From: a virus
Virus record (IMG/VR): IMGVR_UViG_3300021438_000050
Span: 1-33,192 of that record
Direction: 5' to 3' (one strand)
Length of the DNA: 33,192 nt
This document shows, piece by piece, positions 4,201 to 33,004 of the stretch (position 1 is its first letter; the number at the start of each line of letters is the position of its first letter). Made by a program: the position numbers and the translations under genes. The notes under the pieces are model-generated. The model had not been told where the DNA came from and searched no databases. It saw nothing but the letters and a program-made list of their open reading frames with translations.

Positions 4201-7200
4201 CATGCCGGCCACGACGTCGGGGTGCAGGCCGTTGGCCGCGGTCAGCCCTTTGAGCTTGCCCAGGTCCGGGTTGTCCAGCGCGGTGTCCGGGTACATCTCG
4301 GCCAGCGCCGAAGTGCTGAGGCGGAAGCCCTTCTCGGCCTTCACCTCCTCGCCGTCGGCGGTGGTCATCTCGCCCTTGCGCAACCAACGCATGGCCTGGT
4401 AGACAGGCATGGCGTCGACCTCGGCGGCCACCTCTGCCATCACCGCCTTGCGCTGATCCTTCACCTGGGCCTGCATCTCCTTGATCCGCCGGCTGCGGGC
4501 GTTGGCCAGCCAGCGCAGATCGCGCAGGCTGCGCGCCTGCAGCTTGTCGACGGCGCCCTCCTCGACCGCTTCAGCCTGCGCCTGGTAGGCCTGCCAGGCC
4601 ACGTCGGTCATGCCGGCGGGCTTCTCGCGGAACGCGGGCACCAGGTGCTGCGTGGCCTCGGCCTCCTTGATGGCCGCGTCGACGGCCAGCATGCGGTCGA
4701 ACACCGCACGCACCTCGTCGCTCAGGCCCAGGCCGTCGGGCGCGCCGCCCGGCGTGGCCTTGCGCCCGTCCAGGAAGTCCTTCAGCGAGCGGTAGACGTT
4801 GAGCATCCAGGCGCGGAAGCGGCGGAACACCGGGCGCAGCTCGGTGCTCGGTGCCTTGCCCTCCAGCAGGTACTGCTCGAAGCTCTCCGCGAAGCGCTCG
4901 TGGTGCTTGCGCTTCTGGCTGACGCTCAGCTGCTGCCACTCGGGCAGCGTCGTGCCGAACCACGTCATCAGCGTGTCGACGTCGCGCGCCACGTCAGCCG
5001 GCGCGTCGGTGCGCGAGCCGATGTCGGTGAGCACCTCCAGGAAGAAGTGCCCGGACTCGTGCAGGAAGCTGCTCAGGTCAGCGCCCTGCAGCAACGTGAT
5101 GGCGTTGGTGCCTGGCGTGAAGAGGGCGCGCGGCGATTCGGCGCTCACCTGGTAGAACTGGTTCCTGATCGCCACGTCATCGCCGCTGAAGACCACGTAG
5201 TTGCGCGCGGAGCTGTCGGCCTTACCGCTCAGGGACCCCACGGGGTAGCTGATGCCGCGGATGCCGGCGTCCATCATCACCAGCGAGGCCGCCTTCGCCA
5301 GGTCTCCGTCGATTGCCGCCTGCTCGGCTTCCCTCTCGGGGATCAGGGCATCGTCCATCAGAGCACGCTTAACGACCTTGAGCATGTCCTGGCCGGTCAG
5401 CTCATCGCGCTCGACGTTGAGCCTGTCGAGCACGTCTTCGAGCCAGTCAGCGGGCATCCGGTCGAGCAACGAATCGGCCGCCTTGCGGGCAACCCCGGGC
5501 TGCTCGCTCAGCGGCTTGTCCCAGTGGAGCATCTCGTCGTCGCCGGGGATGTCGACTTCGTAGACCTGCCCACCATCCGGCGGGTTGAACGCCTCGTCGT
5601 GAGACTGGATCCAGCCGTACAGCTCGGTCCACTCCTTCGCCGGCGCTGGCTCGTCCTCGGCCACGATGATGTTGGCACTGATGTCGTCATTGGCGGCCAG
5701 CATGTCGCCCTTGTGCTTCATGACGAGCGCGGCCAGGACATCGGTCGCCGCCTTGCTCAGGCCATCCTTGCCAGCCACGTCGCGCGCGAACCGCACGGCG
5801 TCGGCGCCCAGCATGCCGTTGTAGGTCTTGCCATCGAACACCAGGGCGTGCGGGTTGTGGTTGGTCAGCTTCTGCCGGTAGTGCTCCGCGATCTCCCTCT
5901 TGCCCGCAAAGTAGAGCCCCCAACCAAAGGCCTGGTGACCCTCGCCCGTGCCGATCTTGTCGGCGCTGAACTTGTCGATGCCGCGGTGTGGCGTGCCGTG
6001 GTAGGCGGTCTGCGCCAGCGAGTCCATGTCGCCAGCTCGGCCCTCGGTCCAGGTCCACTCGGGCATGAGCCCGGTCTTCTGCTCGGCGAAGACCGTGTCC
6101 TCGACCTTGGCTGTCTGGTTGGCCGCGCCGTGCGGACCGTAGTTCAGCCAGCTGTTCTGGCCGCGGGTCTCGCTGGTGATGGCGCCCACCGCGCTGCCGG
6201 TGAACAGGCGGACGTGGGCCTGCCATGCGTTCTCCTCGCCCTGGGCGCGGAAGCCTGCGCCCTCCAGGCCATGGCCGAAGGCGTCGTGCACCGCACGGAA
6301 GAGGTCGTTGGCCAGCACGCGGCGCTTCGGGCCATCGGGTGAGCCGAAGCCCCACTCGATGCCGGTGTCAGCCAGCAGCGGGTTGACCTTGTCCGAGGCC
6401 TTGGCGCCGTCCAGGCGCAGGAAGTAGTCCGGGTTGTAGGGGCCCCAGGCCTCGGCCTTCGGGCCGAAGAGGTCGCCCGTGCCGTTGTCCAGGCGCTGCG
6501 CGATGGCCTCCTGGCCCAGGGCCTTGGACAGCGCGTCGCCCTGCTCGGGTGTCAGCGGCGCCTTGAGCTTCACCACGACCGTCGGCTCGGTGTCCGAGGT
6601 GTGCACGGCGTTGGCCTCGACCTCGCCGCCGGCATCGCGGATCGCCTGGATCACCGCGGCGGGATCGAGCTGCGGGCCGCCGGCCGGATCGGCCAGGCCC
6701 ACGTTGAGCTCGGCTCCCACGCCGAAGCCAGCCTCGGTGGCGAACACGCCCATGCGCTGGTTGGCCCGCAGGTCGCGCATGGCGTTCCACGGGTTGCCGG
6801 CGTAGGGGTCGTTCGTCTCGTCGTGCAGGTAGAACACGTAGCCCGCGGCCTGCAGCGCGTGGTACTGGTCCAGCGTCTGCCGGATCAGGTTCTCGTAGGC
6901 CTCCTTGACCGCCGGGTTGTCGGGCTCGTTGGGCATGTCGGCGTAGGCCTGCGCGATGCGCGCGGCGCGCACCGGGTCTACTTCGACGTAGCGGTCCTGG
7001 CGGCGGAGGGCGATGCCGCGCTCGGCGGCGTACTGCTCGGCGACGGCGACGAGCCGCGGGTCGGGGCCGCTGGCCCCTGCCACAGTCGGCGCGCCCGCAA
7101 GCGGCGCAAGGCTTCCGCCCGGAGCCCCTGGTCCTCGGTTTCCATTCAGGCCCCCTTGCTCGTAGCTGCCGGCGGCGCGCTGGGCGCGGAGCCGTTCGAG

Positions 7201-10200
7201 GCGCCGGGCGGCCTGGAGCTGGAGCTTGCGCTGAGCCTCTGGATCAAACGCAGCTGCTTCTCCGCCAGGCTGGGTTGCTTCGTCAGCGACGCCTGCATCA
7301 GGTCGCTGAGCGCTTGCGAGGGCGTCGAGCTTGTCGGCATAGCCGGCCTCCTTGAGGATGGCCCCGTAGGTGGGGTCGTTGAACAGCGAGCTGAAGTCCG
7401 GGGTGGCGTTGATCAGGTCGTCGGTAAGCTTGCCCTCCTGCAGCGCACGGGTGGCGGTCATGTCGCCGACCTGCAGCTCGTAGAGGGTCTTGGCCCACGA
7501 CCACACCGTCTCCTGCACCTCGGCCGGCGTCCAGGTGTCGCCGGTCACCTTCGTCAGGTAGGCCGCCGCCTCGCGCGTGCGGGCTGACATGGCCAGGTAG
7601 CCCGAGCCCTTGCCGGGGTCGGTGCCCAGCACGTTCATCGAGCCGGCGAACATGACCTGGTCGATCAGCGCGTAGTTGGCCATCCAGGCGTCGTTCGTCA
7701 CCTCGCCGGCCACGCCGATGAGGTTCAGGAAGAAGCTGTTGACCTTGGGGCCCGACAGCATCACGCGCGACGTGGCCGCGCCGGCCGGGTTCTCTTCGGT
7801 CAGCGCACGCACCGAGTTGTTGATCCAGGCGTCCAGCACGCTGGCCCGGCCGCGCCCGCCCTGCACGCTCTGGCCCATCACGTCGATGATGGCCTCGCGA
7901 TCGGTCGGTCGACCCTGCTCGGTCCAGTTCTTCCAGATGTTCAGCGCGTTGAGCAGGTTGGTCTCGACCGAGCACTGCGGGCTGGTGGCGGCCAGCAGCG
8001 CGGCGAAGCGTGGGCCGTCGGGTCCGAAGACGGCGCTGATGGTCTCGGCCGAGGCCTTGTACCAGCCGCGCTTGGCCTGGCCGCCCAGGGCCACCGCCGC
8101 CATCTCCTTGGCCGACGGCAGCGACTGCAGTTGCGCGATGACCTTGGCCGCGGTGGCGTCGGTGATCTTGCGCTGCTCGGTCGGCGTCAGGTTCTTCAGC
8201 AGTTTGCGCACCGCCGGCGTCATGTCCTTGACGCGCGACTGCTCCAGCGGGGCCGCCTGCTTGGGCCGCGACTGCAGCTCACCACCCGCGATACGCAGGT
8301 CGTAGTTGGCCCAGGCCGGGCTGGCCTGCATGCGCTGCAGCTTGGCCTGCAGGTGCTCGGGCTGGCCCGCGGCCTGCGTCGTCCAGGTGGCCTCGGCGGC
8401 CGGCAGCGGCTCGACCTTCTGTCCCGCCTCGATCTGCGACTGCGCGCCCAGCAGCTCGGGCTGGAAGGTCTGCCGACCCAGCATGATGACCTGGCCGGGC
8501 TGCGTGCCCTCCAGGCGCGTGGCGTAGCCCCGGTAGCCCAGGTCCAACAACTTGCTCTCGAAAGCCCGGGCGTCGCCGGTGCGCAGCTTCAGCGGGTCAG
8601 CGTCGGCGTCGTAGACGCCCGTGAGCTGCACGCGGTGGGCGCGCGCCCCGACGCCGGCCTCCGGCCGCACGCCGGTGCCCTTGTCGAAGTAGAAGCTCAG
8701 CCGCTCGCGCAGGCGCGCATCCGGGTGGGCCATGATCTCGTCGCGCGCGCTGCCCTTCAGCCCGGTGCCGAAGAAGCTGGTCGACAACAGCGTGCGGTCC
8801 TGCTTGCTGAAGTGGTAGCCCTCGACGTTGATGGCGCCGGGCAGGCCCGCATCCCTGTAGGCCTCGCCCACGGGGCTGGTGGCCTGCACCTTCAGGGCGT
8901 GCCGGTTGAACAGCTCCTCGGCCGTCGTGCCGGTGCGCTGCGCCATGGTCGCGAAGAACGCGGCGTGCAGCGCGGCGTAGGCCGTGTTGACGTCGGCGGT
9001 GAAGCGGCCCGCCTTCTGCAGCTCGTCGAACACCCGCTGGCGCACGGCCTCAGCGCTGGCGCGCGCGGCGTCGTCCTGCGAGGCCTGGGCCAGCACCTCC
9101 TCGGCCTTGGCCTGCACGTCGGCCGAGGCCTTGCTGCTGGCCTCCTTGGCCTCGGCCTGGCTGAGCTCGTTGTCGCCGATGCGCGCGTGCTGGAGCAGCA
9201 CCTGCTCCAGCGGCGTGCCGGCCAGCTGGCTGAACTCGCCGACGGGCACGGTCACTTCACCGCCGGCGGCGACAGCTTCGACCAGGCCGGCCGCCGCGGT
9301 GGGCAGCACGCGGGCGATCTGCGCAGGCTCGACGCCGGCCTGCTGCAGCGCGTCGACCAGCGTGCGCGCGTCGAAACGCACCTCGGTGGGCGCGCCGTCG
9401 GTGCCCTCGGCCAGGGCCTGCATGAGCCCGCCCGACACGTCAGGCGCCCGCTCGTGCAGCTTCATGGCCGCCTGCAGCTTCATGAGCTCGGTGAGCGTGG
9501 CCGCGCTGTTCTCCGCGCGGTGGGCCTTCTCCGCGTCGATCGCGGCGGCACCCAGCACATGCGTCAGGCCGTGGCCGACAGCCACGTTGCCGCCCACGCC
9601 GATCAGCGTGGCGATCAGCGTTTGCGCTGCCGCGCTGGGCCGTTCTTCGAGGTAGGCCGAGAAGGGCTTGTCCTTGTTCTCCGGCAGGACAGCCCACTCG
9701 TTGAGGTCTTGCAGCAGGGTCGCCACTTGTTCGCCGGGGATCTCCTGCGCGGCGTCCGTGAGCGCGGTGCGCACGAGCGAGGTGCCACCCTTCAGGTTCT
9801 TCAGCAGCGTGGCCAGGGGGATGACCTCGGTGGCGTACTCGATGGCCGCCTGCGACGCCGCAAAGGGCAGCGCCTGGCTCATCGGCATGCCCTGCTCGCG
9901 CCCCTGCTGGTAGGCATCGCCGCCGGTCTGCGCGGACATGCCGGCCAGCGCGGCGGCCTGCCCGCCGGGCAGGAAGGCCAGGGGGAGCGTCAGCAGGTTC
10001 TGGGTCAGGGACTGCACGCCCGAACTGACGCCGCCGGCCACGACGCCTGGCTGCGCGGGGCTCAGTGCCTTGCGCTGCGCGTCCGCGGCGGCGCCCTGCA
10101 TGGCGAAGCCCTCGGCCAGGCGGCGCAGCGGGTTGCCGCCCAGGCCAGGGTAGCGCTCCAGGGGGTCGAGCAGCGGCGCGGCCAGTTCGGCCGCTGCCTG

Positions 10201-10644
10201 GCCCACGCCGGCCGCGCCGCGCGACGCGCCGAACACGCCCGCACCGACATCGCCGGCCAGGGTGTTCTTGGCGCTGGGGTGGCTGGTGAGGTACTTCGCC
10301 ACCGCGCTCGCACCGTCCACGAACGCACCCAGCGCGTCGGTGTCGTCGTGCACCAGGCGGGCGAAGTCCGGGTCGAGCATGCGCTGCTGCAGCACCGGGT
10401 GCTTGCCGGCCACCTGCGCCGCGCTGTTGGCCTTGTCCTCCAGGCGCGACTCGGGCCAGGTGTTGACCACGGCCTCCACCGGCAGGCCCAGGCGGCCAGC
10501 CACGCGACGCTGCGCCGCAAAGGTGTCGCCCTGGAACTGGTCGGCCTGCTGCGCGGTGGCGCGCACCGCGGCGCCATCCAGCGCCTGGCGGCCCCGGATC
10601 TTGTCGAGCAGGGCCTGGTCTTCGGGCGTCAGTTCACCGGCCAT
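1294..10644 (-). CDS. Giant polyvalent virion protein (3116 aa) with ADP-ribosyltransferase-like and zincin-like modules
   Basis: One uninterrupted 3116-residue frame in the place of the very large internal or ejected proteins of Bcep22-like podophages. Modules by residue: 175-370, glycine/alanine-rich hydrophobic segments; 605-730, an ART-like module (GYHFSKQDRTLLS, RPEAGVG, LGYRGY); 840-1055, a helical module with GPKVNSFFLNLIG and VTNDAWMA; 1235-1530, a module with PDNPAVKEAYENLIRQTLDQ and later VHDAFGH, GEENAW and ETRGQNSWLNYGPHG; 1545-1790, an ART-PolyVal-type domain (AYHGTPHRGIDKFS, GWGLYFAGK, then GIRGISYP); about 1845-1960, a zincin-like HESGH (H1862) with FAESFEQYL downstream; 1980-2450, coiled-coil-rich; 2780-3116, a C-terminal LPD38-like region with hydrophobic helices. 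The ATG follows GGAG by 7 nt and overlaps the preceding gene by 11 nt. Family knowledge suggests delivery with phage DNA to modify or protect against host factors. Individual activities are inference. Confidence 0.85.
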   Translation of the reverse strand: MAGELTPEDQALLDKIRGRQALDGAAVRATAQQADQFQGDTFAAQRRVAGRLGLPVEAVVNTWPESRLEDKANSAAQVAGKHPVLQQRMLDPDFARLVHDDTDALGAFVDGASAVAKYLTSHPSAKNTLAGDVGAGVFGASRGAAGVGQAAAELAAPLLDPLERYPGLGGNPLRRLAEGFAMQGAAADAQRKALSPAQPGVVAGGVSSGVQSLTQNLLTLPLAFLPGGQAAALAGMSAQTGGDAYQQGREQGMPMSQALPFAASQAAIEYATEVIPLATLLKNLKGGTSLVRTALTDAAQEIPGEQVATLLQDLNEWAVLPENKDKPFSAYLEERPSAAAQTLIATLIGVGGNVAVGHGLTHVLGAAAIDAEKAHRAENSAATLTELMKLQAAMKLHERAPDVSGGLMQALAEGTDGAPTEVRFDARTLVDALQQAGVEPAQIARVLPTAAAGLVEAVAAGGEVTVPVGEFSQLAGTPLEQVLLQHARIGDNELSQAEAKEASSKASADVQAKAEEVLAQASQDDAARASAEAVRQRVFDELQKAGRFTADVNTAYAALHAAFFATMAQRTGTTAEELFNRHALKVQATSPVGEAYRDAGLPGAINVEGYHFSKQDRTLLSTSFFGTGLKGSARDEIMAHPDARLRERLSFYFDKGTGVRPEAGVGARAHRVQLTGVYDADADPLKLRTGDARAFESKLLDLGYRGYATRLEGTQPGQVIMLGRQTFQPELLGAQSQIEAGQKVEPLPAAEATWTTQAAGQPEHLQAKLQRMQASPAWANYDLRIAGGELQSRPKQAAPLEQSRVKDMTPAVRKLLKNLTPTEQRKITDATAAKVIAQLQSLPSAKEMAAVALGGQAKRGWYKASAETISAVFGPDGPRFAALLAATSPQCSVETNLLNALNIWKNWTEQGRPTDREAIIDVMGQSVQGGRGRASVLDAWINNSVRALTEENPAGAATSRVMLSGPKVNSFFLNLIGVAGEVTNDAWMANYALIDQVMFAGSMNVLGTDPGKGSGYLAMSARTREAAAYLTKVTGDTWTPAEVQETVWSWAKTLYELQVGDMTATRALQEGKLTDDLINATPDFSSLFNDPTYGAILKEAGYADKLDALASAQRPDAGVADEATQPGGEAAAFDPEAQRKLQLQAARRLERLRAQRAAGSYEQGGLNGNRGPGAPGGSLAPLAGAPTVAGASGPDPRLVAVAEQYAAERGIALRRQDRYVEVDPVRAARIAQAYADMPNEPDNPAVKEAYENLIRQTLDQYHALQAAGYVFYLHDETNDPYAGNPWNAMRDLRANQRMGVFATEAGFGVGAELNVGLADPAGGPQLDPAAVIQAIRDAGGEVEANAVHTSDTEPTVVVKLKAPLTPEQGDALSKALGQEAIAQRLDNGTGDLFGPKAEAWGPYNPDYFLRLDGAKASDKVNPLLADTGIEWGFGSPDGPKRRVLANDLFRAVHDAFGHGLEGAGFRAQGEENAWQAHVRLFTGSAVGAITSETRGQNSWLNYGPHGAANQTAKVEDTVFAEQKTGLMPEWTWTEGRAGDMDSLAQTAYHGTPHRGIDKFSADKIGTGEGHQAFGWGLYFAGKREIAEHYRQKLTNHNPHALVFDGKTYNGMLGADAVRFARDVAGKDGLSKAATDVLAALVMKHKGDMLAANDDISANIIVAEDEPAPAKEWTELYGWIQSHDEAFNPPDGGQVYEVDIPGDDEMLHWDKPLSEQPGVARKAADSLLDRMPADWLEDVLDRLNVERDELTGQDMLKVVKRALMDDALIPEREAEQAAIDGDLAKAASLVMMDAGIRGISYPVGSLSGKADSSARNYVVFSGDDVAIRNQFYQVSAESPRALFTPGTNAITLLQGADLSSFLHESGHFFLEVLTDIGSRTDAPADVARDVDTLMTWFGTTLPEWQQLSVSQKRKHHERFAESFEQYLLEGKAPSTELRPVFRRFRAWMLNVYRSLKDFLDGRKATPGGAPDGLGLSDEVRAVFDRMLAVDAAIKEAEATQHLVPAFREKPAGMTDVAWQAYQAQAEAVEEGAVDKLQARSLRDLRWLANARSRRIKEMQAQVKDQRKAVMAEVAAEVDAMPVYQAMRWLRKGEMTTADGEEVKAEKGFRLSTSALAEMYPDTALDNPDLGKLKGLTAANGLHPDVVAGMFGYTSGDQLVRTIIDAEPRTSVIEGMTDQRMLERHGDVSSPEGLARAVDEALHDEARGRFLATELAALRDGVASPKLTSAVDSAVAKADRARSAAGRKVAGPTPRVLAKAAREFGRQLAGRRKVRELKPGLHAAAETRAAKAAEKALAAGDMAAAAQAKQDQLLQHYANKASAEALDQVERGREYLKKFDKAVLKGLDQEYTDQIHKLLERVDLRKQSNTALDRRAKLAAWIAEQEDLGIEPDIPDYLLEDAQLTSYRDMTVEQFLGLLDTVRQIEHLGRLKNKLLTAQDQREFATIVQTIVDGIVAHAGNRKGITRTPADTLGRALKGLRNFGAAHIKVATWARIMDGGKDGGPVWEYFVRNANERGDWETERIAKATADLTSIMQPLLDAAKLGGKGTWFPSIGSSLNKEQVLAIALNTGNDGNLQRLLGGEGWTLDQLQPVLATLTPADWKAVQSIWDYFETFRPEIGAKEKRVFGKEPEWIEPGSPVTDAQGLRGGYYPIKYDPSASGKAEQHASAEEAKAQLKGAYNAATTRRSFTKSRAEEVVGRPLLYTLAGVYTGVQDVIHDLAWHEWLIDTNRLLRNQAIDSTIRKRYGPEVVGQFKSWRDDIAAGNQGANSALEMALGRLRQSVSVAGLGFNVVSALMQPLGLTQSIVRIGAKWVGKGVMQSLASPLGAARKTNEMSSFMRSRSRTRLRELNELRNRVQGQSGVKRAISENAYRMMMAFQQLVDVPTWLGAYEKAVADGNDDKRAVALADQAVIDAQGGGQAKDLAAIERGGPALKLFTTFYSFMNTAANLGAARAMTSERTAAGRAKLAADMLLLYTVPAVLGALLKDAITPGDSGNDDWEKLARKLLAEQLSFLMGLFVVGREFGQVATTVTGAGQPRDYAGPPGLRAIGDAYKFSTQAAQGEFDDSFRKAAINLLGDIFGLPSAQLNRSITGTQALVEGQTQNPAAVLLGYQEPR

Positions 10645-25436: not shown

Positions 25437-27008
25437 TCAGGCGTAGGGGTTGTGGCCCAGGGCCTCGAATGGGTCGTAGGCCATGGTCTCCTGCCTGGCC
25501 GACGCCGCGCGCAGGGCCGAGATTTTGGGCACGTCGATGTTGGCCAGGATCACCGCGGTGGCCCGGTCGGGTGAGTGCCCGATGCGCTTGATGATCTCCT
25601 CGCGCGCCTCGACGCGGATGGTCATGCCGCTCAGCGCCCACCGCGGCGCGCAGAGCTCGCGCAGCAGCTTAGGGTCGGGCGGCAGGCAGACGCCGGTGTC
25701 GTTGGCCGGGTCGAGCGTCTCGCGCATGCGCCACCAGAGCTCGGAGCGCAGGTTGAAGAACCCCAGCCGGCCCGACTTGTCGCGCCCCTGGCTGCCCTCG
25801 GCTACGTTGATGCCCAGGGTCTGCACACCCATGCTGTTGAGCACGTCGTAGGGCGAGGCGCCCACACCGATCACGTCGATCAGCACCGGCGCGCTGTCCT
25901 TGCGCTCGGCGATGACCAGGCCGGCCACGCGCGGGCCGTCGGGCGTCTCGGTGCCCGGGTGCTCCTTGAGCTGGTCGAACCACTTGTCGGTGCCGCCCTC
26001 GACCTTGTGCCGGTTGGCGATGGTGGTGGAGTCGCGGCCACCGCGGGCCACGTCCACGCCCTGTGCCAGCATCTCGCCCTTGGGTGACCGCGGCTTCCAC
26101 CTGGCCTGGGCCGCCTCGACCCACGCGGTGGGGATGACCTGCCAGGGGTCGTCCTGCATGCCGGCCTCGAAGTCGCCGTGCAGCATCTGCGAGCGCAGCG
26201 GCTCGGGCAAGGCTTGCAGCGTGGTCATGTAGTTGGTCCCCATCAGGTACGGGTTGTCGGCGATGCGGCTCGGAATGAACGTGCGCGACTGCGGGGTGAT
26301 CAGCTCACCCTTGTGGGTGAACGGCTCAGCGCTGTCGACCCACCGCTCCTCGCCGTCGACCATGGCCACGAAGCGCAGCTCGCCCGGCCTGGCCGGGTAG
26401 CCGGGGTGCTTCTTGTCGAGCCACGGGCCGAAGAACTGCACGATCCACCGGCCCTCGGCCGAGGTCGGCGGGTTGAAGGTCATCAGCGTTTGCGTGCGCT
26501 GGGTCGGGTCGGTCGTGCGCACCCAGCCCATGAGGAAGCGCACCTGGCTCTCCAGGAAGTTGGCGGCCTCGTCGATGAGCAGCAGGTCCTTGGGGCGGCC
26601 CTGGAACTTGCGCTCGTCGCCCAGGTTGGGCACCGAGCCGAACTCGATGAGCCTGCAGCCGCCCCACGGGTTGCGCCACACCGGCGGCTTGCCGCCCAGG
26701 CCGTCGCGGTGGCCGAGCAGCTGCTCGATGCGGTCGATGATGCCGCCGAGCTCGGTGCCCTCGCGGCGGAAGCACTGCACGACCTGGTGCTGGGTCAGGG
26801 CCTTGCCGACGGCCAGGTCGGTCTTGCCGCCCCCGGCCGAGCCCCCGAAGCCGATCACGTCGGCGGTGGACTCGTAGGCCAGGGTCTGCGGCCCGGGCAG
26901 CGGGCGCCAGATCGTGGCCTGCAGGTCCAGGTCGACCAGGGTGTCGAGCTCAGCGAGTTCGGCGGGCGTCAGGTAGGCCCTGAGCTCGCGGATCTCGGCA
27001 GGCGTCAC
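25437..27008 (-). CDS. terL: Terminase large subunit
   Basis: The 523-residue packaging motor. The N-terminal ATPase domain has a Walker A at residues 55-64 (GGSAGGGKTD), a Walker B LLLIDE at 142-147 followed by AAN, and a coupling-type TFNPP at 177-181. The C-terminal RNase H-fold nuclease has D319 in GVDVARGGRDSTT, D378 in VLIDVIGVGASPYDVL and D481 in HSPDRATAVI as the likely metal ligands. The protein cuts concatemeric DNA and pumps it through the portal. The start codon is a GTG at 27008, overlapping the small-subunit stop as GTGA, so the two subunits are translationally coupled. Length and motif spacing are ordinary. Confidence 0.95.
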   Translation of the reverse strand: MTPAEIRELRAYLTPAELAELDTLVDLDLQATIWRPLPGPQTLAYESTADVIGFGGSAGGGKTDLAVGKALTQHQVVQCFRREGTELGGIIDRIEQLLGHRDGLGGKPPVWRNPWGGCRLIEFGSVPNLGDERKFQGRPKDLLLIDEAANFLESQVRFLMGWVRTTDPTQRTQTLMTFNPPTSAEGRWIVQFFGPWLDKKHPGYPARPGELRFVAMVDGEERWVDSAEPFTHKGELITPQSRTFIPSRIADNPYLMGTNYMTTLQALPEPLRSQMLHGDFEAGMQDDPWQVIPTAWVEAAQARWKPRSPKGEMLAQGVDVARGGRDSTTIANRHKVEGGTDKWFDQLKEHPGTETPDGPRVAGLVIAERKDSAPVLIDVIGVGASPYDVLNSMGVQTLGINVAEGSQGRDKSGRLGFFNLRSELWWRMRETLDPANDTGVCLPPDPKLLRELCAPRWALSGMTIRVEAREEIIKRIGHSPDRATAVILANIDVPKISALRAASARQETMAYDPFEALGHNPYA

Positions 27009-27559
27009 GCCAGCGACTCTGGGTCGATCGCCGCTGCCTCACGGCGGGCCCTGGCGGCCTCCAGGATCGCCGCAACGCGGGCCTCCCTGGCGCTGGCGTC
27101 GGCGACCTGCATCGGCGCGCCCCCAGGGCCCGAGACCTCGGTGGCGCTGGTGCGGTAGCTGCTGCGCCTGGCGGCCAGCACGCGGCCCAGCAGGGCGTCG
27201 CTGTAGGTGCGCTCCAGCAGCGGCACAGGCTGGCCCTGGTCGTCCAGTTGCACCACGTAGTGCTCGTTGCCCTCGGCGTCCACCTCGCGCCGGGTGAGGT
27301 AGACGACGCGCCCCTGGTGCACCACCGGCTTCGTGAAGCCCTCGACGCCGCGCCGAAAGGCCTCCTGCTCGGCGCGGTCGATGCCGGCCTCCATGGCCTC
27401 GTCGTAGGCCTCGGCGAACTCCTTGTCCGTCTGCCGTCGGCGGAAGACGGTGCTGCGCTCGACCATGGCCAGGTCGCAGGCGCGCTGGATCACCGGGCAC
27501 TCGCGCAAGGAGGCCAGAAAGGCTGGGCGCCAGTCGGTGGGTGGGTAGTGCGTGGGCAT
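27005..27559 (-). CDS. terS: Terminase small subunit
   Basis: The start is placed at the ATG at 27559 (MPTHYPPTDWRPAFLASL); an earlier in-frame ATG at 27604 falls inside the upstream gene. The 184-residue product has an N-terminal helix-turn-helix at about residues 22-45 (VIQRACDLAMVERSTVFRRR) followed by DKEFAEAYDEAMEAGIDRAE, the classic small-terminase DNA-recognition layout. A beta-rich middle (GRVVYLTRREVDAEGNEHYV) and a basic helical C-terminus (AILEAARARREAAA) complete it. It recognises phage DNA and recruits the large subunit, with which it overlaps by 4 nt. The ribosome site is weak. The upstream HTH gene ends 13 nt before the start, so read-through coupling is likely. Confidence 0.85.
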   Translation of the reverse strand: MPTHYPPTDWRPAFLASLRECPVIQRACDLAMVERSTVFRRRQTDKEFAEAYDEAMEAGIDRAEQEAFRRGVEGFTKPVVHQGRVVYLTRREVDAEGNEHYVVQLDDQGQPVPLLERTYSDALLGRVLAARRSSYRTSATEVSGPGGAPMQVADASAREARVAAILEAARARREAAAIDPESLA

Positions 27560-27572
27560 GACAGCCGCGAGT

Positions 27573-27800
27573 TTAACGGCGCGGCGCACGCCAGCGGGTG
27601 GCAACCTGGCCGCGCCGCTCTCCGGACAGGATGCCCCGGATCAGCCGCCGACTGCAGTTGAAGCGCTTGGCCAGCGCTGCCTGCGTCCAGCCTTGGGCTG
27701 CCAGTGCGTGGATCTCGTCGACCTGCGCATCGCTCAACTTTGCGCGGTGATGGCTGTCGCCGATGGCATAGCCCTTGTCATTGCATGCGATGTATTGCAC
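27573..27800 (-). CDS. Small HTH DNA-binding protein heading the structural operon
   Basis: The start is placed at a GTG at 27800 because GAGGAG lies exactly 6 nt upstream. The in-frame ATGs at 27851 and 27821 have no ribosome site, and the first lies inside a probable promoter. The 75-residue product contains a helix-turn-helix of the resolvase/transposase type: KLSDAQVDEIHALAAQGWTQ, then AALAKRFNCSRRLIRGIL, with a basic tail ending RWRAPRR. It is the first gene of the leftward terminase-capsid operon and is divergent from another HTH-containing gene with a similar module. A role as a regulator of the late operon or as a DNA-packaging accessory is inferred from context. Confidence 0.65.
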   Translation of the reverse strand: MQYIACNDKGYAIGDSHHRAKLSDAQVDEIHALAAQGWTQAALAKRFNCSRRLIRGILSGERRGQVATRWRAPRR

Positions 27801-27885
27801 GTTCAGCTCCTCAGGACACATTTGCACCGCACGAGGGGGTGCGTTTAGCATATAGGCCCGTTAACACCCCAAGCGCAAAGCGAAA
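27801..27885. promoter_or_regulatory. Divergent promoter/operator region
   Basis: This is the only divergent gap in the window. Leftward, TTGCGC (complement of 27873-27878) and TATATG (complement of 27849-27854) are 18 nt apart and would give a leader of about 40 nt before the GTG at 27800. Rightward, TTGCAC (27822-27827) and TAGCAT (27846-27851) are 18 nt apart. The two -10 elements overlap, so the promoters would compete. An inverted repeat GCACC/GGTGC (27824-27842) and the palindrome GTTAAC (27860-27865) could be protein-binding sites. The promoter elements match the consensus only partly. Confidence 0.4.
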
Positions 27886-28473
27886 ATGCCAAACACCACT
27901 GTCCTCATCGATGGCCGTCGGTACACCTACCTCGGCCTGATCGATCACACCTGTCGCGACGGCAGGCCCACGAAGCTCCACGCCTGGTCCGTGGCGTGCG
28001 GGCACCCCGGCTGTCTGCAGGCAAAGGCGTTCAGGGTTGCGGCCCTCAACGCCTCCGGCTCGCTCACGGATCCGATGGACCCTCAGCGCCAATACGCCGA
28101 TTGGTTCAAGCGCGCCTGGTTCTGCCGGCCGACGCACCAACCAGAGGAGGTACAGGAGGCGAAGCGCCAGCGAAAGCGGGAGGTCAAGGCCGCCGCCCGC
28201 AAGCGCTACCGCGAACGCCGGCGGGTGAAAGCCATCCTGGCGGGGAAGGCCGTTACCGCGGGAGGGCGGCCCTGCAAGTTGACCGACGCCCAGGTGGCCA
28301 GCATGCGCGTCCTCGCCAGGGGGTTGCTGCTCGTGGCTGGAAGCATGACCGAGGTCTACCAGGAGGTCGGCGAGGCTTTCGGCACAAAGCCGAGTGTCGT
28401 GCGGGAGATCCTTGCCGGCCGGCGCCGTGTTGCTCCAGGAGATACCCCAGAACCCCTCCGGTGGCGCCGATAG
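27886..28473 (+). CDS. Putative zinc-binding/HTH regulatory protein (only rightward gene)
   Basis: A 195-residue basic protein. The N-terminal half has C38-x-H40-x2-C43 (ACGHPGCLQ) and a later C80-x3-H84 (FCRPTH), a plausible small zinc knuckle. A very basic linker (EAKRQRKREVKAAARKRY) follows. The C-terminus (about 130-180) carries a helix-turn-helix-like module with KLTDAQVASMRVLARG and VGEAFGTKPSVVREILAGRR, resembling the module in the divergent 75-residue protein. It is the only gene on the plus strand and is bounded by a divergent promoter region and a bidirectional terminator. It is therefore an independent transcription unit, possibly a regulator or late acquisition. No strong ribosome site precedes the ATG. 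No named family is recognised. Confidence 0.65.
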   Translation: MPNTTVLIDGRRYTYLGLIDHTCRDGRPTKLHAWSVACGHPGCLQAKAFRVAALNASGSLTDPMDPQRQYADWFKRAWFCRPTHQPEEVQEAKRQRKREVKAAARKRYRERRRVKAILAGKAVTAGGRPCKLTDAQVASMRVLARGLLLVAGSMTEVYQEVGEAFGTKPSVVREILAGRRRVAPGDTPEPLRWRR

Positions 28474-28509: not shown

Positions 28510-28551
28510 CCCGGGGTAAAAACCCCTTAGTAGGGGGTTTTTCACCCCGGG
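28510..28551. terminator. Bidirectional intrinsic terminator
   Basis: The core AAAAACCCC (28518-28526) pairs perfectly with GGGGTTTTT (28534-28542) around a 7-nt loop. This gives a G/C stem flanked by A5 and T5, the classic two-way rho-independent layout. Outer arms CCCGGGGT and ACCCCGGG extend it by 8 bp with one bulged C (28543). It lies between convergent transcription from the rightward gene (stop at 28473) and the leftward early block. Confidence 0.85.
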
Positions 28552-28576: not shown

Positions 28577-28778
28577 TGCAACGTGCAACGTTGACTGCAC
28601 GTTGCACCGCGTTGCACCGCGTTGCAGCTATTTTTTGCATGCTCGTGGTCGAAACGTGCCTGTTTTTTAGGCACAACGCCCCTCCTCCTGCGCGACCCGG
28701 CCAAGTTACCTCCCGGGGGTATCGGGCCAAAAACGCGCTGCAACGCGCTGCAACGCGTGCAGAAAATCGCGCGTTGCA
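28577..28778. repeat. TGCAAC/GTTGCA repeat array in a non-coding island
   Basis: Eight copies of the hexamer TGCAAC or its complement occur at 28577, 28584, 28601, 28611, 28621, 28739, 28749 and 28773. Copies at 28601, 28611 and 28621 are direct repeats 10 nt apart (GTTGCACCGC units), and those at 28739 and 28749 are also 10 nt apart (GCTGCAACGC units), i.e. one helix turn. Two perfect 9-bp inverted repeats are present: GTGCAACGT/ACGTTGCAC (28583-28607) and TGCAACGCG/CGCGTTGCA (28749-28778). AT-rich patches (ATTTTTT near 28630, AGAAAAT near 28761) lie between or inside. The stretch 28474-28781 has no convincing gene. It could be an iteron-like replication origin or a multi-operator control region. 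Confidence 0.7.
28656..28674. terminator. Small T-loop hairpin in the non-coding island
   Basis: GTGCCT (28656-28661) and AGGCAC (28669-28674) form a perfect 6-bp stem around the loop GTTTTTT. It lies between the two clusters of TGCAAC/GTTGCA repeats. The T-run is in the loop, not after the stem, so termination is doubtful. A structural element of an origin or a leader hairpin are alternatives. Confidence 0.35.
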
Positions 28779-28781
28779 CGC

Positions 28782-29156
28782 TCATGCACGCAGCTCCCTG
28801 CTGAAATTCGCGCGTTCATAGCGGCGACGCCTGCAGTTCTCGCTCGGCGTCACCAGCTCCAGGTGGTCCGGGTTGATGCACGACGGCTGCCAGCAGAGGT
28901 GATCGAGCTCCAGCCCGGCCAGCTGGAGGGCCTCGTAGGCCTCCATCAGCCCGCAGGCCAGGGCCTGGGCGTCGGTGGCCAGCCACGCCAGAATGTGAGC
29001 CATGAAGCGGCGCGCCTGGCCCAGGTGCGGCACCCACACCGTCAGCCTGGCGTAGCCCCCGGCGTCGGCCTTGCCCTTCCAAAGCCAACAAGCCTGCGCG
29101 TTGGCAGGCTCGTGGGTGTTGGCGACGAGGCGCTGGAGCATCGTCTCGTAGGCCAT
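28782..29156 (-). CDS. HNH endonuclease
   Basis: The start is placed at the ATG at 29156 (MAYETMLQRLVANTHEPANA), in a TGATG overlap with a micro-ORF; longer in-frame starts cover Pro/Arg-rich non-coding sense. The 124-residue protein has the small phage/homing HNH layout: ACWLWKGKADAGGYARLTV, AHILAWLA, then LELDHLCWQPSCINPDHL. D85-H86, N95 and H98 are the likely catalytic and metal residues, C88/C93 form a possible structural pair, and the block ends VTPSEN. Such enzymes nick or cut DNA and metal-bind through a beta-beta-alpha fold. HNH proteins encoded near terminase can assist packaging, but this one is separated from terminase by a rightward gene. It may equally be a free-standing selfish nuclease. 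Confidence 0.85.
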   Translation of the reverse strand: MAYETMLQRLVANTHEPANAQACWLWKGKADAGGYARLTVWVPHLGQARRFMAHILAWLATDAQALACGLMEAYEALQLAGLELDHLCWQPSCINPDHLELVTPSENCRRRRYERANFSRELRA

Positions 29157-29245
29157 CAATCGGGGTTCATGAGGTTGAACACCAGCCAGGCCAGGCCCAG
29201 GGCCACGGGGGCGGCCAGGGCGGCGCAGACCAGGAGCAGGATCAC
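29156..29245 (-). CDS. Micro-ORF: single-pass membrane peptide (29 aa)
   Basis: A 30-codon frame from a GTG at 29245 to a TGA at 29156-29158. It reads as one hydrophobic helix (VILLLVCAALAAPVALGLAW followed by LVFNLMNPD). The GTG overlaps the preceding stop as GTGA and the stop overlaps the HNH start as TGATG, so it fits exactly in an overlapping gene chain. An AAAGGCGG sequence lies close upstream. It could be a small inner-membrane effector, a holin-like peptide or only a coupling ORF. The hydrophobic composition with a polar C-terminus is not typical of chance frames here. Confidence 0.5.
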   Translation of the reverse strand: MILLLVCAALAAPVALGLAWLVFNLMNPD

Positions 29246-29331
29246 AGGCCACCGCCTTTCGTGGCGGCCCGGCGCAGCTCATAGGGCCGGTCACACCCGC
29301 CACGCGCCATCGGAGCGGGGGCGGCTTCCAT
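29242..29331 (-). CDS. Micro-ORF: 29-residue basic peptide
   Basis: A 30-codon frame from an ATG at 29331 to a TGA at 29242-29244. It reads MEAAPAPMARGGCDRPYELR and ends RAATKGGGL. It starts 3 nt after the stop of the 127-residue protein and its stop overlaps the membrane micro-ORF as GTGA. Translation is supported by this exact fit into the operon and by an ending (AAAGGCGGTGG) resembling the repeated gene-junction sequence found further upstream. It may start at the second ATG (29310). No function is known. Confidence 0.4.
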   Translation of the reverse strand: MEAAPAPMARGGCDRPYELRRAATKGGGL

Positions 29332-29334
29332 CGC

Positions 29335-29718
29335 TCACAGCTCGCCCCCATCGCTCAAGTCGTCCGCCGTCAGCTTGCACTCGCGCGTGCGGCCGACGAT
29401 GCGGAAGTAGCCCGACAGGTTGACGTGTTTGTCGGCCCATTGCCGCACCAGCGTGAGAAGTTCTTCCTTGGCTTCAGCGCCGGCGATGGAGAAGTTGCTG
29501 TCAGCGGTCTCGCCGACGACCCGGTATAGGTCGTCGTCCAGGAGATCGAGTATTTGCCCGATGAAGTTCTCGTGAACGAGCGCCGAGTTGGTCATCGGCT
29601 CGCAGTCAGCGACGTAATACGTGTCGCCGACCTTCGGTTCGTCCATGGCGTCGATGACGCTACCAATATCGGAATGGACGAAGTCCTCGTCGTTGGTGCT
29701 GTAGTAGTGGATGCTCAT
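29335..29718 (-). CDS. Acidic phage protein, unknown function
   Basis: A 127-residue acidic protein (SIHYYSTNDEDFVHSDIGSV, VGDTYYVADCEPMTNSALV, ILDLLDDDLYRVVGETADSN) with a helical C-terminal part (AEAKEELLTLVRQWADKHVN) ending in a strand-like FRIVGRTRECKLTADDLS. Proteins with this N-terminal pattern are encoded in early regions of many phages of high-GC hosts, but no function is known to me. GC is visibly lower than in the structural block. The start overlaps the preceding stop as ATGA and includes the repeated junction sequence. It lies in the early operon downstream of replication genes. Confidence 0.65.
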   Translation of the reverse strand: MSIHYYSTNDEDFVHSDIGSVIDAMDEPKVGDTYYVADCEPMTNSALVHENFIGQILDLLDDDLYRVVGETADSNFSIAGAEAKEELLTLVRQWADKHVNLSGYFRIVGRTRECKLTADDLSDGGEL

Positions 29719-29942
29719 GCCGCACCGCCTTCACTGCCTGCCGCCTTCGGCGGGTGAATCGTCACGTTGCGCTGCATGCCGCCATCCAGCGTGATGGGGA
29801 GCGTCGCGTCCACGCCTTTACGCCTGCACAGCTCGACGGTCAGGCCGACAAGGGCACCTGTCAGAACCGACAAGACATCCCCGACTTCCTCCTCGTCTAG
29901 TGCCGCCTCTATTGCCTCGCCGAGTCTTTCCAGCGCACTCAT
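29715..29942 (-). CDS. Small phage protein, unknown function
   Basis: A 75-residue protein. An acidic amphipathic helix (ALERLGEAIEAALDEEEVGD) is followed by a more hydrophobic helix (VLSVLTGALVGLTVELCRRK). A short C-terminal strand region (ATLPITLDGGMQRNVTIHPP) follows. It is not a clear membrane protein because the hydrophobic stretch is short and interrupted by charged residues. It starts at 29942 in an ATGA overlap and ends in an ATGA overlap, both within copies of the same 19-nt junction sequence. No family name is assigned. Its position suggests an early accessory role. Confidence 0.6.
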   Translation of the reverse strand: MSALERLGEAIEAALDEEEVGDVLSVLTGALVGLTVELCRRKGVDATLPITLDGGMQRNVTIHPPKAAGSEGGAA

Positions 29943-30463
29943 GCCGCACCGCCTTCCTTGGCGGTGGCCTCGATGGACCTGAACAGCCGCAATGCCTTTG
30001 GCGTCAATTCCGACACGCCAAGCGGGCCTGAATCCCTGATGACGCGAAGCACGTCACCGAAGCCTTCCCGCATCACGATCTGCAGCAAGACAGCCTCCGA
30101 CAGCGGCGCCCGCGCTGCGGCGGGTGGATGCAGAAGCGCGTTCGTCAGCTTGTCGATCCCATCGCAGAATGCGCGCCCATCGCCGCCAGCCGCGAGGATC
30201 TTCTCGGAGATTTCTGCCGCAGCGGCCCAGAAGCGATCCTCAGACGACATGGGTAGTGCATGGAGCTTCTGGGTCACCTCACCGTCCCCGTCCCCGTCAC
30301 AGACAGGGCAGTCCTCTGCCTGCTCATAGGTGTCCGGTCCGCGACCATGCATCACCATCACGCTGCCAGAGCCAGCGCAGTATTCGCAGTCGGCTGGCTC
30401 TGCCGGAGCCCGCGCTGCACCCTGCGCCACCGGAGCGGGGGCGTTCTTCTCATTCGTGCTCAT
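29939..30463 (-). CDS. Zinc-knuckle phage protein, unknown function
   Basis: A 174-residue protein. Residues about 27-57 contain C-x2-C-x-G-x-G (CEYCAGSGSV) and, 20 residues later, C-x2-C-x-G-x-G (CPVCDGDGDG), the paired motif of a DnaJ-type zinc knuckle, with an HGRGPDTYEQAE spacer. The remainder is helical (FWAAAAEISEKILAAGGDG, AFCDGIDKLTNALLH, LLQIVMREGFGDVLRVIRDS). The zinc module probably mediates protein or nucleic-acid contact; no chaperone J-domain is present. A GAGGAG site lies 7-8 nt before the ATG. It overlaps the DUF3310-type gene by 14 nt upstream and the next gene by 4 nt. Confidence 0.6.
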   Translation of the reverse strand: MSTNEKNAPAPVAQGAARAPAEPADCEYCAGSGSVMVMHGRGPDTYEQAEDCPVCDGDGDGEVTQKLHALPMSSEDRFWAAAAEISEKILAAGGDGRAFCDGIDKLTNALLHPPAAARAPLSEAVLLQIVMREGFGDVLRVIRDSGPLGVSELTPKALRLFRSIEATAKEGGAA

Positions 30464-30707
30464 GCTTGCTCTCCTCGTGCTCGATCAGCAGGTCCAGGAA
30501 GTGGCGCGCCTTCTTCAAGTCCTCGACGCCACCCTTGCCGCGCCAGCGGCTGACGTACTTCACCACGCAGCCCTCGATGAACGGCAAGGCGTTGGCCAGG
30601 ATGTACTGCACCGGCTGGATGGCCATGTCCTTGTAGTGGGCGCCGCCGACCTGGCGGTCGATGGCAGGTTTGATGGCGGGTTTGATGGCGGGTTTGATCG
30701 CGTCCAT
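30450..30707 (-). CDS. DUF3310-type phage protein
   Basis: An 85-residue protein with the DUF3310 signature: VGGAHYKDMAIQPVQYILAN, LPFIEGCVVKYVSRW, KGGVEDLKKARHFLDLLIEH. This small helical family is widespread in early regions of phages and is related to the T7 early-gene/nucleotide-kinase-associated proteins; its exact role is uncertain. The first 16 residues (MDAIKPAIKPAIKPAIDRQ) are an added Lys/Pro/Ala/Ile segment encoded by a 12-bp tandem repeat and are not part of the usual domain. An AGGAG site lies 6 nt before the ATG and includes the stop of the preceding gene. Confidence 0.85.
   Translation of the reverse strand: MDAIKPAIKPAIKPAIDRQVGGAHYKDMAIQPVQYILANALPFIEGCVVKYVSRWRGKGGVEDLKKARHFLDLLIEHEESKHEHE
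30661..30696 (-). repeat. 12-bp tandem repeat (KPAI x3)
   Basis: Three copies of a 12-bp unit (CAAACCCGCCAT in the coding sense, one copy with a single change) encode KPAI three times at the N-terminus of the DUF3310-type protein. Such a short in-frame repeat can change copy number by slippage without breaking the gene. Confidence 0.8.
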
Positions 30708-30716
30708 GTTTCACTC

Positions 30717-31031
30717 CTAGGTTGTGAGGCGCCGGCGGACGGTGTCCCCGCTGACGCCATAGAGCGCGCAAAGCTGCGCGATGGTCCACCCGTCGGCGCG
30801 CCGGCGGCGCAGGGCCGCCTGGCCTTCGGGGGTGTTCAGTACGTGGAACGGCATCTGGCCCTGGGTCAGCTGGGTGACGCAGTAGCTGTGCGCCACCGCG
30901 CCGAGCCAGGCCCTGCGGCTGCCCGGGCTGATGTTGCCGGCCACGAGCGGGCCCTTCGTGATGTGCGATGGCCGCATCGCAAGCTCGACGAAGCGGTGCT
31001 CGTCGATGGGTGTGCGCATGGCGTTCTTCAT
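30717..31031 (-). CDS. Small HTH protein in the replication block
   Basis: The start is placed at the ATG at 31031, overlapping the primase-helicase stop as ATGA; an upstream frame to 31088 lies inside that gene. The 104-residue protein has an N-terminal part that is not recognised (EHRFVELAMRPSHITKGPLV, SRRAWLGAVAHSYCVTQLTQ). Its C-terminal helix-turn-helix (ALRRRRADGWTIAQLCALYG, VSGDTVRRRLTT) is of the same general type as the one in the 75-residue protein ahead of terminase. It could be a DNA-binding regulator or a replication accessory factor. The last residues are inside the HTH, so the recognition helix is at the extreme C-terminus. Confidence 0.6.
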   Translation of the reverse strand: MKNAMRTPIDEHRFVELAMRPSHITKGPLVAGNISPGSRRAWLGAVAHSYCVTQLTQGQMPFHVLNTPEGQAALRRRRADGWTIAQLCALYGVSGDTVRRRLTT

Positions 31032-33004
31032 AGCACGGTGATGCAGTTGTCGTCGCCCAGCCAGTAGGGCGCGTCGTCCCCCTGGCACAGGCTCTCCAGC
31101 GCGCGCTTGACGCGCTGCTTGCGGGTGTCGCGCTTGCCGTCTTCTGGCGCCGGCAGCCGCTTGACGCTCTCAGCCAGCACGGCGGCCGGCTCGATGCCTG
31201 AGGTCTGCGCCTGGGCCATCTCCTGGATGACCTCGTTGACGATGGTCTCGGTCGGCCCCAGCACGCGCAGCGTCCGTGCCGTCGGAAGGTCAGCCTCGGT
31301 GACCACGCAGCTCGTGACCTGGTCGCCGTCGGCGTCGATGCCGATGGGCACGACCTCCAGCCCGAAGCCCCAGGCCAGCGCGTCGTCGCCGTCCTTCATC
31401 TTCGTGACCCGCAGGCTGCGGCCGCCGGCCATCTTCAGGACTTCGAGCTCGGCGTCGGCCGCCGCGCGCAGGCCGCTCCAGCCGCGGGCGCCCTTGCTGG
31501 CATCCTTGCCGGAGTGGTGCACCAGGACCACCAGCGCGCCCGTGGCGCGGTGCAGGCCGGCGCAGTGGGCCAGGGCCTTGCCCATGTCCTCGCCGGCGTT
31601 CTCGTTGGCCCCCGGCGTGGTCTGGGCCAGGGTGTCGACGATGACCACGGCGGCCGGGCCGATGGCGCGGGCCAGCGCCAGCGCGTCGTCGCGCTGCAGC
31701 AGGTTGGGCTGGTCCGGGATCACGTCCAGCGGCACGTCGGCCAGGTCGACGCCGTGCACCTGGGCGTAGGCCTGGACGCGGTTGCGGAAGCCGCCCGCGC
31801 CCTCGGCGCAGACGTAGACCACCCGGCCCTGCCGCACACGCCGGCCGCGCCAGGCCTGGCCCTGGCAGATGGCCATGGCAATGTCCAGCACCACGAAGCT
31901 CTTGCCGCTGCCCGACTCACCGAACAGCACGCACAGGCCAGCCCGCGGCAGCACGCCCTTGACGATCCACTCGGGGCTGGGCCGCTGCACGAACTGGCCG
32001 GCCGGGATGGGTGTGAAGCGCGCGGACTTGCCCGCCGGTGCGGGCGCGGCCACCGCGGCCTCGAACTCGGCCGGGCCCGCCGGCGCGTGCAGATCGATCC
32101 CGGCGCCGTGCTCGTTGGCCAGGTGCACCAGGCTGCGGGCGGTGACCGTCGGGCCGGTGCCCTTGCCGAAGCTGGCCCAGCGCGCCAGCCCGTACTCGCG
32201 GGTGGTGTACTTGGGCGAGAGCTGGCTGAAGCTGTCCCAGGTCTCGAAGCCCTCGGCCGAGCCACCCGTCTCGTGGTGGATGGCCATGCCGACCATGAGC
32301 CAGCTGTCATAGTCCAGGTCGTCGGGCAGCGCGGCCAGGCAGTTGCCGAGCTGCTGCGGCGTCAGGCCCAGCGCGTCGAGGTTCTGCTCGCCGCTCTCGG
32401 CCAGTGCCTGCAGCTCGCGCTTGAAGCGACTGCGCACGAAGCCCATGACCTCGGCGCTGATCGGCGCGACCTCGCCGGCGTTGCCCAGCATCTCGACCAC
32501 CGGCAGGACGTTGCCCGTGAAGGTCACGAAGCCCTTGGTGCTGAAGGTCTCGAAGCCGAAGGCGAAGCCCTTGGACGCGTGGCTCTTGCGGTCGCCCAGC
32601 TGGCCCTGGAGGAAGACGCGCACCCCATTGCCCGAGGGGCTGAGCTCGGCGTAGGTGTCGGCCAGCAGCGGCACGATGTCCTGGTGCACCTGGCCGGCCT
32701 TGACGCAGTCGTCGAAGTCCAGGGCGGTGATGCCGAACTCAGCCAGGGTGGCGAAGCCCACGCCGTCGAAGCCGCGCCTGGCCGCAGCGGCCCGAGCGGC
32801 GTCGAAGGTAGTCAGCTGCTCCAGATCCTCGGGCGTGCCGTGCTGCCGCGCGCGGCGGCCACCGTTGGCATACCAGGGCACCTTGCGGGGCTTGCCGCCC
32901 GGGTTGTCGTTGGGCTCGTAGCGCCAGATCAGCCAGGCGCGAGGCGCACGCAGCGCCGCGGGCGCGCGGATGTGCGCGATGTGGGAGACGTCGACGGCGG
33001 CCAC
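31028..33004 (-). CDS. Primase-polymerase/RepA-like helicase fusion
   Basis: A 658-residue replication protein. Residues about 20-200 are an archaeo-eukaryotic-primase-type domain (WLIWRYEPNDNPGGKPRKVP, then ITALDFDDC with D96 and D98, then ELSPSGNGVRVFLQG). Residues about 215-300 match a PriCT_2-like segment (LAALPDDLDYDSWLMVGMAI, ETWDSFSQLSPKY). Residues about 345-560 are a RepA/RecA-type ATPase with Walker A at 362-369 (GESGSGKS), Walker B VVIVDT (D457) and LVHHSGKD (H496/H497). The protein should unwind the phage DNA and make primers at the fork. The start is a GTG with GAGG 5 nt upstream. Where primases often have S-x-G-x-H, this one has SPSGNGVRV, with no His. Confidence 0.88.
   Translation of the reverse strand: MAAVDVSHIAHIRAPAALRAPRAWLIWRYEPNDNPGGKPRKVPWYANGGRRARQHGTPEDLEQLTTFDAARAAAARRGFDGVGFATLAEFGITALDFDDCVKAGQVHQDIVPLLADTYAELSPSGNGVRVFLQGQLGDRKSHASKGFAFGFETFSTKGFVTFTGNVLPVVEMLGNAGEVAPISAEVMGFVRSRFKRELQALAESGEQNLDALGLTPQQLGNCLAALPDDLDYDSWLMVGMAIHHETGGSAEGFETWDSFSQLSPKYTTREYGLARWASFGKGTGPTVTARSLVHLANEHGAGIDLHAPAGPAEFEAAVAAPAPAGKSARFTPIPAGQFVQRPSPEWIVKGVLPRAGLCVLFGESGSGKSFVVLDIAMAICQGQAWRGRRVRQGRVVYVCAEGAGGFRNRVQAYAQVHGVDLADVPLDVIPDQPNLLQRDDALALARAIGPAAVVIVDTLAQTTPGANENAGEDMGKALAHCAGLHRATGALVVLVHHSGKDASKGARGWSGLRAAADAELEVLKMAGGRSLRVTKMKDGDDALAWGFGLEVVPIGIDADGDQVTSCVVTEADLPTARTLRVLGPTETIVNEVIQEMAQAQTSGIEPAAVLAESVKRLPAPEDGKRDTRKQRVKRALESLCQGDDAPYWLGDDNCITVL

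Follow-up and report, generated by a model that had tools for sequence, protein, structure and literature searches.

An array of short direct and inverted repeats that lies downstream of the primase-helicase gene of a BPP-1-like podophage is very probably the replication origin of this phage, its repeats acting as iterons to which the primase-helicase encoded by the phage itself would bind through its C-terminal winged helix. The array, its conserved position, the AT-rich element that it encloses, its association with the primase-helicase gene and the covariation of repeat bases with a protein residue can all be read directly from the sequences compared here.

Genomic setting

The analysis was carried out on an IMG/VR virus record of 33,192 bp (hereafter, the window), which represents a portion of the genome of a podophage, a relative of Bordetella phage BPP-1. 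Structural genes are encoded in the window, including the large terminase subunit (TerL), a head-tail adaptor and tail genes, and its TerL is 54% identical to that of BPP-1, 62% to that of Limnohabitans phage DC33 and 74% to that of the nearest distinct metagenomic relative. The DC33 record (L087, PQ492659) encodes a tailed-phage TerL, yet is filed as Inoviridae. More than a quarter of the window is taken up by an open frame of 3116 aa (1294-10644, minus strand). Two further contigs from a single metagenome, L180 and L006, match the window at 99.95 and 99.98% identity, with ends that flank the array region (window positions 29199 and 27917). The features relevant to the analysis are as follows.

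25437-27008, minus strand: TerL (context)
27005-27604, minus strand: small terminase subunit, TerS (context, not the reader)
27573-27851, minus strand: small HTH protein, bbp27-like, conserved beside TerS (context, not the reader)
27886-28473, plus strand: 195-aa antisense-oriented gene between the array and the HTH gene, with homologues in relatives
28510-28551: two-way terminator-like hairpin, an inverted repeat with terminator-like matches on both strands (28523-28537)
28577-28626: iteron cluster A, with TGCAAC at 28577 and 28584 (plus) and GTTGCA (TGCAAC on the minus strand) at 28601, 28611 and 28621
28629-28668: AT-rich stretch between clusters A and B, candidate melting element
28739-28778: iteron cluster B, with TGCAAC at 28739 and 28749 (plus) and GTTGCA (minus) at 28773
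28782-31088, minus strand: small open frames between array and primase-helicase, including an HNH-like frame (28782-29351)
31028-33004, minus strand: primase-helicase, 658 aa, proposed initiator (Pfam, PHROGs and PDB sequence matches, fold match)
31031-31315, minus strand: C-terminal 95 residues of the same protein (564-658), predicted winged helix and proposed iteron reader (model, winged-helix matches)
31085-31123, minus strand: predicted recognition helix, residues 628-640, including R631 (covariation, model)

The array in the window

An earlier, sequence-only reading of this region had described eight copies of the hexamer TGCAAC/GTTGCA in about 200 non-coding bases, and proposed either an origin or a multi-operator. 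The eight exact copies are real, and so is the non-coding character of the region: long mechanical open frames run across it, but the longest has no Pfam match. All eight copies extend to CGTTGCA, so the unit of the array is at least 7 bp long. The hexamer is not comparably dense in the rest of the window: 8 of its 13 sites fall within the 202 bp at 28577-28778, whereas the largest TGCAAC cluster of this length among 300 dinucleotide-shuffled versions of the window held 4 copies. When any hexamer was allowed, the best cluster in 60 shuffles had 7 copies, a value reached twice, versus the 8 observed. No second array was found within the window.

Successive copies are spaced by 7, 17, 10, 10, (118), 10 and 24 bp. 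The exact 10-nt spacing claimed for each cluster thus applies to part of the array and fails elsewhere (7, 17, 24). Similarly, there are indeed two clusters, but these are not simply opposed, since both orientations occur inside each of them. The 9-bp inverted repeats are present, with certain arms extending to 10-11 bp, and the AT-rich patches were correctly described, the stretch at 28629-28668 exceeding every other 40-mer of the window in AT content (GC 0.40 versus 0.696). A scan of the array region for sigma-70-like promoters found none. Cumulative GC skew had been suggested as a check. Its turning point lies close to the array in the case of the window (27601) but does not coincide with the array in BPP-1, where it lies at 31427; as evidence of an origin the skew is equivocal.

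The rightward gene noted next to the array (27886-28473), from which the array is separated by the hairpin at 28510-28551, is also real. Among the fetched loci, tblastn detected homologues that agree with it in place and direction in L218, L230, L240, L198, L207 and L212, and a pattern scan of viral contigs with this gene returned no relative. The C-terminus of its product resembles the HTH protein (HTH profile match, 1.6e-7).

The array is conserved in position but not in sequence

Arrays occupy the same place in relatives. Both results that would have told against the earlier reading, an equal density of the hexamer elsewhere and its absence from relatives at the syntenic position, were thus looked for and did not appear. 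In the loci L007, L009 and L060 an array of the same hexamer is found between the primase-helicase stop codon and the small HTH gene, beyond which lie TerS and TerL. Across relatives the layout consists of tandem copies in opposite clusters around an AT-rich stretch, and the repeated word differs between phages: it is AGGCAA in BPP-1, where it occurs in tandem only at 26607-26710, AGTGAC in Acinetobacter phage 4316, and TTCCAA, GTCGCAA, TAGACA, GGGAACA or others elsewhere. Both-strand tandem pairs were present in 47 of 135 such regions, versus none of 562 random regions of those loci. Opposite clusters are separated by a median of 71 bp, and in 96% of 46 loci this intervening sequence ranks within the top 5% of the locus for AT content. 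Spacing within clusters is 9 bp in 87 of 121 cases among relatives, so the 10-nt helical phasing put forward as a hallmark of the array does not hold as one.

In most relatives the array begins within approximately 20-60 bp of the primase stop codon, while in the window the distance is about 2.25 kb, with small genes in between. Arrays also accompany primase-helicases of the D5_N type (BPP-1, 4316) and of a VapE-like type (L115, L127, L109), and in L187 and L253 an array follows the primase with no terminase match nearby. Related primase-helicases in L221-L229, L231, L238 and L244, mostly in loci without a nearby terminase match, have no such array behind the gene. As opposed to the identical copies seen in other loci, L102 and L170 carry two different units upstream of the HTH gene (CGTTTGGAT and CGTTTGTTA), with an exact mirror on the other side. 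In Caulobacter phage SR18 (L089), an annotated 2078-bp repeat_region at the start of the record (1-2078) ends within the TerS gene.

The array follows the primase-helicase gene

Whereas the HTH, TerS and TerL genes are conserved in nearly all loci, the array is not. It was detected in 70 of 74 loci with an adjacent primase-helicase gene and in 2 of 45 loci that have HTH, TerS and TerL but lack this neighbour (Fisher p about 3e-25, a value that is too small because the loci are related to one another). Adjacency was defined as a primase-helicase gene at most 900 bp upstream, and the window was scored as adjacent by hand despite its intervening small genes. A weaker class of array accounts for 27 of the 70; of 562 random regions, 35 contained arrays of this class as well. 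Among the four exceptions, L102 and L170 do have CGTTTG-TTA units in mirrored order, which escaped the detector.

The sharing of words between loci was then compared with protein similarity over 2211 locus pairs. Similarity of the primase-helicase predicted a common word well, with an AUC of 0.87 for the last 60 residues and 0.88 for the core, versus 0.66 for the HTH protein and 0.55 for TerS. In this all-pairs test the core performs as well as the C-terminus, and the two are not separated. Individual loci point in the same direction. BPP-1 and L097 have CGAGGCAA in common and C-termini that are 98% identical, with different TerS proteins; GTTCCA and the C-terminus are common to L030, L093, L104 and L101, whose HTH and TerS proteins differ; L158 and the window share GTTGCA and an RDTRKQ-type helix with unlike HTH and TerS; and, conversely, L030 and L070 have near-identical TerS proteins and different words. 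Both TerS and the HTH protein were considered as readers of the repeats and rejected on these patterns of presence, absence and covariation. TerS proteins of differing types lie beside a conserved HTH protein and TerL in L086, L097, L030, L070 and others, as if exchanged as cassettes.

Repeat bases covary with the C-terminal domain of the primase-helicase

The assignment of the reader to the C-terminus comes from evidence within clades. In the clade of the window, the C-terminus carries the motif RDTR(K/R)QX..RA, with small variations, in which X corresponds to R631 of the window protein. The word is GGTGCA in all 10 loci with His at X, and GTTGCA in all 24 with Arg, Lys, Met or Val there. All 34 loci are therefore concordant, and on a tree built from the enzyme minus its C-terminal domain the residue and the word each change 6 times. 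Four loci that have neither array (L103, L182, L183 and L251) were excluded from this count, the contigs of L182 and L183 stopping at most 800 bp from the primase-helicase gene. Five independent pairs on strongly supported branches are all concordant, which alone falls short of the 0.05 level (p 0.0625), and in the sister pair L203/L208 both residue and word differ.

The unit of the BPP-1 clade is CGTTTG-NNN, whose final triplet varies along with a short variable segment of the C-terminus: IDSTH occurs with CCT, MNTY or MNNY with GAA, LNSY with TTA, QNCA with TAC, RQCA with TGC, KDEY or KDSH with CGA, RDSH or RDTA with CGT, and RGEA with TGT. The closest cases have cores that are 0.87-0.94 identical to that of BPP-1, while segment and triplet differ. 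From these comparisons, the iterons seem to be read by the C-terminal domain of the phage's own primase-helicase.

The proposed initiator combines an AEP-type primase half with a PriCT_2 domain (Pfam; PDB matches 7ola and 6a9w) and a helicase half of the RepA/AAA_25 type, which matches the fold of RSF1010 RepA (Z 15.2, rmsd 2.7, 184 aligned residues). The full-length model is of low confidence (mean pLDDT 60). Modelled separately, the C-terminal domain is predicted to form a winged helix (mean pLDDT 83), with R631 inside the predicted recognition helix. A structure search with this model matched many unrelated winged helices, including the Fur family (Z up to 8.6), ORC and others; the P4 alpha domain 1KA8 is not among the matches listed, which has no bearing either way.

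Comparison with known replication origins

We infer physical binding, melting and origin firing by analogy with the P4 alpha protein and the Rep proteins of SaPI/PICI elements (PMC6092414, PMC7581432, PMC4234260). The C-terminal winged helix of the 31028-33004 protein would bind the CGTTGCA iterons as double-stranded DNA, and occupancy of both groups of sites would load helicase complexes on either side of 28629-28668. This AT-rich stretch would then melt, the helicase part unwinding and the primase part priming, probably in both directions.

The array shares the layout and position of the PICI origins in the pri-rep-ori arrangement of SaPIbov1 and EcCICFT073 (PMC6092414). These origins lie immediately 3' of the initiator gene, as do the arrays of most relatives, although not that of the window. 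In this type it is the C-terminal domain of the initiator that reads the iterons, and the covariation supports such a role for the primase-helicases compared here. SaPI/PICI origins are carried by satellites, whereas the window array belongs to a tailed phage, and the presence of phage structural genes indicates that it is not a PICI; the helicase part, of the RepA/AAA_25 type, is a further difference. P4 alpha likewise unites primase and helicase in one protein with a winged helix at the C-terminus, by which the origin repeats are bound (PMC4234260). Its primase, however, is of the TOPRIM type, as opposed to the AEP-type primase and RepA-type helicase of the window. The helicase of P4 alpha belongs to SF3, and the P4 iterons differ in sequence from those of the window. 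The fusion of a TOPRIM primase to an SF3 helicase that marks the P4 alpha family is absent from the window protein, which is not a member of that family because both primase and helicase differ. The best reading is that the array would work in the manner of the P4 and SaPI kind.

ORF904 of plasmid pRN1 also combines an AEP primase with a helicase and a winged helix, and a further common feature is a 100-bp inverted element 3' of the gene whose sequence is not conserved. In a 2014 study of pRN1 a replication protein resembling that of the plasmid was noted in BIP-1/BPP-1; MEME gave no iteron origin there, and a stem-loop with "not yet identified sequence motifs" was put forward (PMC4234260). 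These stem-loop origins were described as recognized by structure and without iterons, in contrast to the arrays reported here; the BPP-1 iterons at 26607-26710 lie approximately 460 bp from 27,177, the position given for the proposed BPP-1 stem-loop. No description of iterons in BPP-1-like phages was found in the open-access literature. The oriV of RSF1010 is also an iteron origin, and it is RSF1010 RepA that comes closest to the helicase part of the window protein, but in RSF1010 the functions are divided among three separate proteins, RepA, RepB' and RepC, with RepC reading the iterons.

Alternative explanations

The array could be bound by the primase-helicase and yet function as a copy-control, enhancer or autoregulatory site, with replication starting elsewhere. 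Phage P4 offers a precedent, having two alpha-bound regions, ori and crr, and the GC skew of BPP-1 shows no turn at its array. Against these points, each of the window and BPP-1 has a single array of its word, and two clusters around an AT-rich element are the layout of tested PICI origins, which makes a pure control site unlikely.

A stem-loop or cruciform origin recognized by shape, as proposed for pRN1 and BIP-1 (PMC4234260), in which the repeats would count only as stem arms, is less probable still. The clusters of BPP-1 do form a long palindrome (single-strand fold z -9.4), and pRN1 requires its stem-loop. In the clade of the window, however, the two arms have different numbers of copies and the clusters fold just slightly better than shuffled sequences (z about -1.8), and the base-specific covariation with a recognition-helix residue suggests that sequence is read.

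Comparison of relatives does not support the multi-operator reading, namely that the small HTH protein would bind the array and control a late HTH-TerS-TerL operon. The HTH gene directly follows the array in most relatives, but it occurs without an array in 43 loci, is a weak predictor of the word, and differs between loci with a common word (L093, L104, L030 and L101; L158 and the window). Taken with the lack of a sigma-70-like promoter and, in the window, the converging antisense gene between array and HTH gene, this makes an operator very unlikely. A packaging site (cos or pac), at which TerS would bind repeats to start packaging as at lambda cosB or SPP1 pac, is hardly tenable: the array adjoins TerS-TerL in most relatives, has central dyads, and several contigs were noted, without statistics, to begin near TerS, but the array is not found wherever TerS is, its repeats do not follow TerS type, even between the near-identical TerS proteins of L030 and L070, and in L187 and L253 arrays occur with no terminase match nearby. 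No mapped virion ends were found, and the BPP-1 record begins at the attachment site of that phage.

Implications

The interpretation of the array as an origin read by the primase-helicase is supported by its synteny, its tracking of the primase-helicase gene, the AT-rich element that it flanks and its covariation with the C-terminal winged helix. Concrete motifs, such as those at 26607-26710 of BPP-1, and a reader domain can now be offered where the 2014 search proposed a stem-loop. Since word and reading residue change together, origins may be matched to their readers by sequence alone across related phages, and the paired changes would make origin specificity predictable from metagenomic sequence. 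The pairs that can be named are His at 631 with GGTGCA and other residues with GTTGCA, and, in the BPP-1 clade, KD with CGA, RD with CGT and MN with GAA. More tentatively, winged helix and iterons might constitute a fast-changing, readable code that spans three helicase types and by which close phages could not fire each other's origins, a possibility that we regard as rather doubtful at present. If it is true, the code would bring about incompatibility at the level of replication, or offer a way to evade satellites with borrowed origins, and the same arrangement may underlie the stem-loop origins of archaeal plasmids of the pRN type.
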